Source of the DNA: an uncultured Eubacterium sp.
GTDB lineage: Bacteria; Bacillota; Clostridia; Lachnospirales; Lachnospiraceae
Reading direction: 5' to 3'
NCBI GenBank assembly: GCA_905236225.1
Contig: CAJOPM010000122.1
Coordinates: 1 to 34,555, forward strand
DNA: 34,555 bases
Positions 28,624 through 34,555 of the stretch are shown here, piece by piece (position 1 is the stretch's first letter; every line of letters begins with the position of its first letter). The position numbers and the translations under genes are program-made. A model generated the notes under the pieces. The model was not told the DNA's origin, did no database searches, and saw only the letters and a list, made by a program, of their open reading frames with translations.

Positions 28624-28637
28624 AGATGAGGGAAGAT

Positions 28638-29906
28638 ATGATTACAGAACAGTTTATACTTTATAATAATTTTAAACACTGTGATATTTTAGAAGGGGTA
28701 TGCAGATTAAAAGGTAAGAGTCTAAGTGATGAAGAGCGACAGGACGCTGTAAATGATGTTGTCAGACAGCTGCTTAAAATGACGGCGCAATATGGATTTA
28801 GAGGAAACTTATGGCATACTTATATTGCATTTCTGATTGTTAATAATGAAAATCCTTATTCGCTGGCTTGTGAAGTAAGAGGAGAAGTAGAAGGAAGTAT
28901 AAATATTGCGGCACAACATGACTTTGAACTTTTTATTGAATTGTTTGATTATGACAAAACTGTTTTAGAGGGCAATATTACTCCTGAGTTATTTGATATT
29001 ATAAGCAATTTTGAAGATTTTGGCTTAGAAAGTTTAGTTTTTAATAAGCATATTAGAGACCAAATATGCAATCTTTCTAAAAATCTTAAAAATGCTGCAA
29101 CAGTAGATGAGTTCCAAAAGCTTGTTAGTGCGTTTTACGGTAAATATGGAGTAGGAGAGATTGGGCTTCATAAAGCATTTCGTATAGAGAATGCAAAAAT
29201 TGTTCCTATATCCAATATAGCGCAAGTAACGTTAGATGATATAGTAGGTTACGATGCTGCTAAGAAAAAAATTATTGATAATACAGAGGCATTTGTTCAA
29301 AAAAGACCTGCTAATAACTGTTTGCTGTATGGTGCTGCAGGTACAGGAAAATCAACTTCTATTAAAGCAATAGCAAACATGTACTATGACAAGGGCTTAA
29401 GACTTATTGAAGTCTATAAACATCAATTTAAAGAATTGTTTGATGTTATAGCTCAAATAAAAAACCGTAATTATCGCTTTATAATATATATGGACGATTT
29501 ATCCTTTGAAGAATTTGAGATTGAATACAAATATCTAAAAGCTGTAATCGAAGGCGGACTTGAAAAAAAACCCGAAAATGTACTTATATATGCTACGTCT
29601 AATCGCAGACATTTGGTAAGAGAGAAATTTAGTGACAAAAAAGATCGAGATGATGACTTACATTCATCTGATACCGTTCAGGAAAAATTGTCCTTGGGTG
29701 CGAGATTTGGCATGCAGATTTATTTTGGTGTTCCGGACAAAAAAGAGTTCAATGAAATAGTTTGCACTCTTGCGGACAAATATAATATAGCGATGAGCCA
29801 AGATGAGCTTTTGCTTGAGGCAAATAAGTGGGAGCTATCTCATGGGGGATTATCCGGAAGAAGTGCGCAGCAATTTATTGATTATCTTAGGGGAAATAGC
29901 GAATAA
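28638..29906 (+). CDS. DUF815-like AAA+ ATPase
   Basis: Walker A LLYGAAGTGKSTSIKA; Walker B-like FIIYMDDLSFE; NVLIYATSNRRHLVREKFSD. RBS GAGGGAAG before ATG at 28638. Confidence 0.88.
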   Translation: MITEQFILYNNFKHCDILEGVCRLKGKSLSDEERQDAVNDVVRQLLKMTAQYGFRGNLWHTYIAFLIVNNENPYSLACEVRGEVEGSINIAAQHDFELFIELFDYDKTVLEGNITPELFDIISNFEDFGLESLVFNKHIRDQICNLSKNLKNAATVDEFQKLVSAFYGKYGVGEIGLHKAFRIENAKIVPISNIAQVTLDDIVGYDAAKKKIIDNTEAFVQKRPANNCLLYGAAGTGKSTSIKAIANMYYDKGLRLIEVYKHQFKELFDVIAQIKNRNYRFIIYMDDLSFEEFEIEYKYLKAVIEGGLEKKPENVLIYATSNRRHLVREKFSDKKDRDDDLHSSDTVQEKLSLGARFGMQIYFGVPDKKEFNEIVCTLADKYNIAMSQDELLLEANKWELSHGGLSGRSAQQFIDYLRGNSE

Positions 29907-29908
29907 TA

Positions 29909-30005
29909 TTATATCTCAGACGAGATGCCCCCCGCCTCTAAGCAAAGCGTAGGCGGGGGAGAAAAACTTGTTTCAGGCGGGGTTCAATCTCCGTCTGAGA
30001 TATAA
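29909..30005. repeat. Structured intergenic element, copy 1 (long inverted repeat with nested G/C-rich hairpin)
   Basis: Outer stem 29909-29922 / 29992-30005 (14 bp) plus AGAT/ATCT beyond a bulge. Inner hairpin CCCCCGCCT (29929-29937) / AGGCGGGGG (29951-29959). Homologous to 34466-34555. Confidence 0.9.
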
Positions 30006-30009
30006 CTAT

Positions 30010-30858
30010 CTATTTGACTCTGCTTAGTTTAATAGTTTCAAGAAATTTATACGGGACTGACATTGCGCCTCGTCCTATGCCAAGACTGATATCAGGTTTA
30101 ATTGAACCATGAAAGTCTGACCCACCTGAAAGCAGCAGATTATATTCATTTGCAATATTGGTAAAATACAGTTCATCATCATGATTATATGTTGAATATA
30201 CAGCTTCTAAGCCATCAAGTCCTGCTTCTTTAAATACAGATAAGGCTTCTCTTAATTGTGCATCAGTATATTTACAAAGACCGGGATGGGCAAATATCGC
30301 TGTTCCGCCTGCTTCTTTTATTAAAGCTATGGCATCTTGCGAAGAAATCAAAGAGCGTTCAACAAAGCATCTTTTGCCATCGCCTAAATATTTTGAAAAT
30401 GCTTCCTTTTTATCTTTAACAAAGCCTTCTTCAATAAGATAATCCGCAAAGTGAGCTCTGGTGATAGTGCCGCCTGTTCTGTTAAGAAGCTTTTCGAAGG
30501 TAATGCTGCTGCCTTCTTTTTGAAGTAAAGAGACGATTTTTTTGTTGCGTTCATCACGTTTTTTTATGAACTCTTTTAAGTTTGTTAGCAAAGGCTTATA
30601 TGTTTTGTCAATAAAAAGGCCTACCATATGTAGCTCTTTGCCGTTATATTCGGTGGATAATTCGACGCCCGGAACAAATTCGATATTGTATGAATTGGCG
30701 GCCGTTTGCGCTTCGCCCAAACCATCTATAGTATCGTGATCGGTTATTGCTATGGCGCTAAGGCCGGATTTAAAAGCAAGCTTTATAAGATCTGAAGGTG
30801 TATATGTGCCGTCCGATGCAGTGGAATGAACATGTAAATCTATAGTTTTTGTTGACAT
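30010..30858 (-). CDS. PHP-domain phosphoesterase
   Basis: DLHVHSTASDGTYTPSDLIKLAFKSGLSAIAITDHDTIDGL; IFAHPGLCKY; LLSGGSDFHGSIKP. Confidence 0.92.
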   Translation of the reverse strand: MSTKTIDLHVHSTASDGTYTPSDLIKLAFKSGLSAIAITDHDTIDGLGEAQTAANSYNIEFVPGVELSTEYNGKELHMVGLFIDKTYKPLLTNLKEFIKKRDERNKKIVSLLQKEGSSITFEKLLNRTGGTITRAHFADYLIEEGFVKDKKEAFSKYLGDGKRCFVERSLISSQDAIALIKEAGGTAIFAHPGLCKYTDAQLREALSVFKEAGLDGLEAVYSTYNHDDELYFTNIANEYNLLLSGGSDFHGSIKPDISLGIGRGAMSVPYKFLETIKLSRVK

Positions 30859-34344: not shown

Positions 34345-34416
34345 GGCCTGTTGGTCAAGCGGTTAAGACGCCGCCCTCTCACGGCGGAATCAGGGGTTCG
34401 ATTCCCCTACAGGCTG
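34345..34416 (+). tRNA. tRNA-Glu, anticodon CTC
   Basis: Acceptor GGCCTGT/ACAGGCT, anticodon stem CCGCC/GGCGG with loop CTCTCAC, T stem AGGGG/CCCCT with TTCGATT loop. CCA not encoded. Confidence 0.97.
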
Positions 34417-34426
34417 CTTTATTACT

Positions 34427-34463
34427 AGGATATTTCCGAATATGGGAATATCCTTATTTTTTT
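34427..34463 (+). terminator. Terminator after tRNA-Glu
   Basis: AGGATATTTCC / GGGAATATCCT, 11 bp with one G.U pair, 6-nt loop; U-rich tract follows. Confidence 0.9.
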
Positions 34464-34465
34464 AA

Positions 34466-34555
34466 CTCAGTCGGAGAAATCCCCCACCTCTAAGCGTTAG
34501 CGTAGGTGGGGGTTATGACAAACTATACTCAGTCGGGGCAGGCGCTCCGACTGAG
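34466..34555. repeat. Structured intergenic element, copy 2
   Basis: Outer repeat CTCAGTCGGAG (34466-34476) / CTCCGACTGAG (34545-34555); inner hairpin CCCCCACCT (34481-34489) / AGGTGGGGG (34504-34512); internal CTCAGTCGGGG (34528-34538). Homologous to 29909-30005 and truncated by the window edge. Confidence 0.9.

Follow-up and report, generated by a model that had tools for sequence, protein, structure and literature searches.

The structured element at positions 29909 to 30005 of the window, that is, of the whole 34,555-nucleotide contig that was analysed, is most likely a copy, without the tail, of an interspersed repeat that is modular, non-coding and non-autonomous and that would spread at the DNA level with the help of a trans-acting factor. 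The feature is real, it is not a product of chance and it is not an orphan. The repeat is dispersed through the genome that carries it, is built from modules whose structure is conserved, occurs across genera and is present or absent at one orthologous locus. This genome (G000) is known from a 1.8-Mb, 94%-complete assembly of 235 contigs, of which the window (C122) is one.

The element nearly fills the 103-nt gap (29907-30009) between the convergent DUF815 ATPase and PHP genes (Table 1). The preliminary description had already seen a gap-filling structure here, and the sequence, the gene coordinates and the folding energy confirm it: the RNA fold of 29900-30015 reaches -48.0 kcal/mol against -27.2 ± 3.3 kcal/mol for 200 dinucleotide shuffles (z = -6.36), none of which was as good. 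The nested fold proposed at that time holds with one qualification. The 14-bp outer stem, the C bulge, the four base pairs and the nested hairpin are all present, and it is for the outer stem, which covaries, that comparing genera gives support; however, the lowest-energy fold of copy 1, obtained from the single sequence, is an alternative that pairs the right arm with an internal partial repeat, and the nested fold resembles the centroid instead. In terms of modules, copy 1 is a complete left (5') module of 95 nt (29910-30004) with one extra T:A pair and without the tail module, which a search with model R1 did not find anywhere in the window. The GC hairpin followed by a T-tract that defines an intrinsic terminator is likewise not seen in copy 1: neither strand carries a T-tract, and no terminator-like site occurs on either strand of 29600-30300. 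The suggestion of a mobile bidirectional terminator therefore fails for this copy, even if other genera have a sister architecture that lies immediately downstream of native terminators.

Table 1. Positions of the repeat copies, their parts and the neighbouring genes in the window.
Feature	Position	Strand	Basis or remark
DUF815 ATPase gene	28626-29906	+	
Interspersed structured repeat, copy 1	29909..30005	+	sequence; similarity to about 36 places in own genome; model R2, 94.9 bits
Outer stem, left arm TTATATCTCAGACG	29909..29922	+	sequence, fold, covariation
4-bp AGAT/ATCT stem	29923-29926 / 29987-29990	+	sequence
Nested 9-bp hairpin, left arm CCCCCGCCT	29929..29937	+	sequence, fold
Nested 9-bp hairpin, right arm AGGCGGGGG	29951..29959	+	sequence, fold, relatives
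Internal partial repeat TTTCAGGCGGGG, alternative partner of the right arm	29971..29982	+	lowest-energy fold; corresponding segment in all aligned relatives
C bulge	29991	+	sequence
Outer stem, right arm CGTCTGAGATATAA	29992..30005	+	sequence, fold, covariation
PHP gene	30010-30858	-	stop at 30010; convergent with the DUF815 ATPase gene
Second element, TTTAACTCAGTCGG subfamily	34461..34555	+	immediately follows the T-tract of the terminator downstream of the tRNA gene at 34345-34416; cut by the contig end

The homologous copy reported about 4.5 kb away is real, but two copies greatly understate the family. Copy 2 matches model R2 at E = 6.8e-10, a value that is not independent since R2 was trained on sequences including copy 1 itself and relatives of copy 2, and its subfamily is itself multi-copy in G000. 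In this genome as a whole, BLASTN placed the left module at about 36 sites (E <= 1.2e-9), and a first look for the tail gave 126 candidates in the 1.8 Mb. Most copies are 89-98% identical over the matched stretches, and the genes around them are unrelated from copy to copy; many are found at contig ends, as is expected of a repeat that breaks the assembly. Rfam 15 returned no match at the gathering score and, for the copies in the window, nothing above chance level at the permissive threshold of E <= 10. The earlier suggestion of a dispersed, non-coding, structured element that is probably mobile and non-autonomous is supported, and its family, which has many further copies in the genome and in relatives, was not found catalogued. 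We found no description of the family in the open-access literature, the coverage of which was incomplete.

Behind the left module there is normally a tail of 92 nt, made of CGCTCCGCGAGGATGCGC and two hairpins. A full element thus contains a left hairpin module of about 35-130 nt and the constant CGCTCCGCGAGGATGCGC, then a hairpin with a bulge and, last, a hairpin that ends in CTTGAA or CTTGAC, and its usual form reads TATATCTCAGACG..CGTCTGAGATATA, then CGCTCCGCGAGGATGCGC, the bulged hairpin and CAAGTCTCGCGAGCGAGACTTGAA. The forms range from a 22-nt minimum (TATATCTCAGACGAGACTTGAA, at L087 and L088) through about 61 nt ending in ACTTG and 95 nt to 190 nt, and the longer ones may carry an optional insert of about 35 nt. 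Copy 1 represents the form that stops right after GATATA, as do three other copies (L006, L009 and L020). Short direct repeats (CGAGA, ACTTG) and hairpin bases mark the junctions between forms, which suggests deletion. At one of these loci (L006, on contig C27 of G000), the repeat is followed downstream by a cluster of other, GTCATTCTGAACGAAGTGAAGAATCC-type repeat-like sequence and then by what appears to be an inverted end of the same repeat family.

Comparison of the copies reveals strong compensatory changes, by which the structures of the tail and of the outer stem are conserved. Among 12 tails from 7 genomes, 93.6% of the cells are paired and 14 of the 29 pairs show two-sided changes; none of 500 shuffles scored as high, and sliding the partner by 1-3 columns gave far lower values. 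For the outer stem, the untouched alignment across genera contains two-sided changes in 7 of the 13 pairs, and in a hand-registered table 185 of the 195 cells pair and 10 of the 13 positions covary. The nested hairpin has weaker support than the outer stem and is badly placed by the automatic alignment. It nevertheless stays paired when its bases change, for example where G:C has become A:T at two positions in copy 2 and in relatives, in which CCCCCACCT pairs with AGGTGGGGG.

The repeat is not restricted to one genome or genus. Using model R1, whose E-values are rough, we detected the tail in 77 of 200 genomes of the same family, corresponding to 76 of 199 genera, and in 23 of 295 genomes of an order-wide sample. 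In this wider sample, a second family (f24) has the tail in four genomes of a single genus, of which three carry at least a dozen copies; two additional families have a single weak copy each. A near-identical subfamily consensus is common to four genomes from three genera (G001, G002, G014 and G157). The only copy in G157 lies between lepA and hemW, as these genes were named by reading their translations; the same element is identical in G480 and absent from its congener G481, in which the two genes are 7 nt apart. As the junction in G481 also differs beyond the element, this is presence and absence at one locus and not a clean empty site, and no clean pair of empty and filled sites was found. 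None of the relatives examined has such an element after the DUF815 gene, and in congeners the protein at the window locus is only 58-64% identical and is followed by other genes; orthologous copies of a related type do persist in G238 and G270. Phage and plasmid records held no match to the repeat. Two matches to viral contigs in IMG/VR were set aside, being 19-mers that look like chance.

Two 5' architectures, types A and B, share the same tail, and copy 1 belongs to the type A class. In type A the arms are fixed (TATATCTCAG, TTTAACTCAG, ATATCAGATG and others). The core of type B is AGGAAA..TTTCCT, and the arms of this core extend back into a native terminator's T-tract. Of 28 type B copies, 22 lie immediately next to a hairpin with a folding energy of -9 kcal/mol or better; the same holds for 5% of type A copies and for 5% of random positions. 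The right arm of type B is best fitted by the flank of its own locus in 27 of 30 copies (7/7 in G005 and 11/11 in G128), and that of type A in 1 of 41. In G360, three copies (at L282, L283 and L284) have the same 89-nt tail and mirrored arm differences. These mirrored flanks point either to arm synthesis templated by the target or to rapid quasi-palindrome correction. According to the former reading, a type B element inserted behind a terminator would create an inverted copy of the target flank, giving the order host flank, hairpin core, reverse complement of the host flank and CGCTCC-tail, and insertion would be fold-back or hairpin-primed; we regard this as a rather unlikely scenario. The mirrored arms may instead result from later quasi-palindrome correction or from selection, and the type B arms of G238, which look inherited, are in line with this. 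One type A copy of G000 (L239, on contig C40) is an exception to the fixed arms of its class, with a mirrored arm change, TGTAAC/GTTACA. In G007, a related element found directly behind terminators at L065 and L072 has a ATGTCAGCTAAAGCTGAC core and a different lead, TTATCGCAGAGCCGCCG, and is probably a third architecture.

Could the element be a functional RNA or DNA structure under selection, such as a stabiliser of mRNA 3' ends, an insulator of convergent genes or a bidirectional terminator, with spread being secondary? The strong covariation speaks for it, as do the placement of copies in 3' UTRs, in 5' leaders and behind terminators, and the A-tract that precedes the GC hairpin in the sister architecture, the other strand of which resembles an intrinsic terminator. 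However, a hairpin needed for mobility would also produce covariation, copy 1 has no T-tract, and relatives do not keep the copies at orthologous sites. Moreover, all gene orientations occur: by a rough ORF-based call, 24 of 55 type A copies lie between rightward genes, 8 between leftward, 9 between convergent and 9 between divergent ones. Several copies begin only a few bases away from a stop codon or seem to provide it themselves. Together, the mixture of orientations and the closeness to stop codons fit a tolerance of harmless sites and not one regulatory role, and we consider selection for such a function improbable as the main explanation. It could also be that the repeats spread only by recombination and are kept for a function. 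At L010, L028 and L212, the repeats begin in or right after the 3' end of a coding sequence and seem to supply its last codons or its stop.

The preliminary description had likened the nested hairpin to the right-end or omega-RNA hairpins of IS200/IS605 elements, which would make the repeat a PATE-like derivative of a TnpA/TnpB element moved by a Y1 transposase. This is very unlikely, even though the hairpins near both ends, the lack of an evident target duplication and the lack of a long terminal inverted repeat in the tailed form agree with it. Neither Y1_Tnp (PF01797) nor the TnpB zinc ribbon (PF07282) has a match in the 94%-complete G000, while control genomes match both. Y1 does not track the repeat either, which is carried without it by G000, G003, G005 and G014. 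No fixed TAM-like word lies 5' of TATATCTC, the flanks being diverse in G000 and showing only a T-rich tendency on the left in G001, and no Rfam family was returned. A SINE-like retro-element moved by a reverse transcriptase (RT) is less probable still and hardly worth retaining. Its appeal comes from a gene of G000 (L223:2069-4099) that fuses an exonuclease III-like endonuclease to a group II-like RT, a LINE-like pair of domains, and from G005, in which endonuclease and RT are neighbouring genes. However, only 4 of 200 genomes of the family encode strong relatives of the fusion protein, against 77 of 200 that carry the repeat, the RT loci lack the tail module, and truncations are internal or 3' rather than 5'; we therefore rejected this driver. 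The fusion gene itself, on contig C226, adjoins a UvrB-like gene and runs off the contig, and it possibly encodes a domesticated repair RT. The adjacent genes of G005 lie at L225:1514-4414, and G001 encodes a protein of 1080 aa that carries RT and HD-CE domains (L228:352-3594).

Among known repeat families, those that rely on Y1 enzymes are contradicted by the features tested, namely IS605-PATE and REP-RAYT. REP/BIME sequences are likewise hairpin repeats dispersed between genes in high copy, but RAYT transposases are Y1-like and expected to match PF01797, which no gene of G000 does, and the unit here has several hairpins and the almost invariant CGCTCCGCGAGGATGCGC. With PATEs and IS200/IS605 ends, our repeat shares hairpins near the ends and no evident target duplication; it differs in that no TnpA/TnpB, TAM-like target word or matching element was found. 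In the way it works, the repeat resembles those of the BOX type or MITE-like ones. Terminal inverted repeats and a TA target characterise MITEs such as RUP and the Correia elements, and the tail-less form here has palindromic ends (TATATCTCAGACG/CGTCTGAGATATA) that can be read as TA-flanked TATCTCAGACG repeats. However, the ends of the tailed form are unlike each other (TATATCTC and CTTGAA), and the left TA is missing in some copies (L018, L025). The BOX elements of Streptococcus pneumoniae, which are modular (boxA, boxB and boxC) and have terminal inverted repeats and target duplications (PMC3049150), are like the repeat in kind: in both cases the units are small, structured, modular and intergenic, are present in many copies per genome, vary in their internal modules and have no obvious mobiliser. 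This likeness is one of description, and we claim no kinship in sequence with BOX. The tailed form here differs in that neither terminal inverted repeats nor target duplications were seen, and the family occurs in many genera, while BOX hardly extends beyond the pneumococcus and its close relatives.

We therefore return to the non-autonomous interspersed repeat, whose movement may be pictured as follows. A recombinase acting in trans, or a process linked to replication, would recognise the folded single strand or a cruciform at the hairpin ends, and new copies would be pasted without a recognisable target duplication. No target duplication longer than a possible TA was seen, and inverted ends occur only in the tail-less form. 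Two results speak against the reading: the search for a transposase or an autonomous partner yielded none, and no clean pair of empty and filled sites came to light. The element lies between genes, close to stop codons, behind terminators or in 5' leaders, where it does little harm, and the shorter forms would arise by loss of segments between the short direct repeats and hairpin bases.

With a presence in roughly 40% of the sampled genera of the family and tens of copies or more in some genomes, the repeat is a sizeable and apparently uncatalogued component of these genomes. It fragments their short-read assemblies and, being located in 3' UTRs and 5' leaders, can alter gene expression. It also seems to spread in the absence of the transposases that commonly go with hairpin repeats. 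The form next to terminators, with its mirrored flanks, is a lead to an unusual insertion mechanism which, if true, would be unlike the direct target duplications of ordinary transposons, and it makes a concrete and testable proposal of how such a repeat may be inserted.
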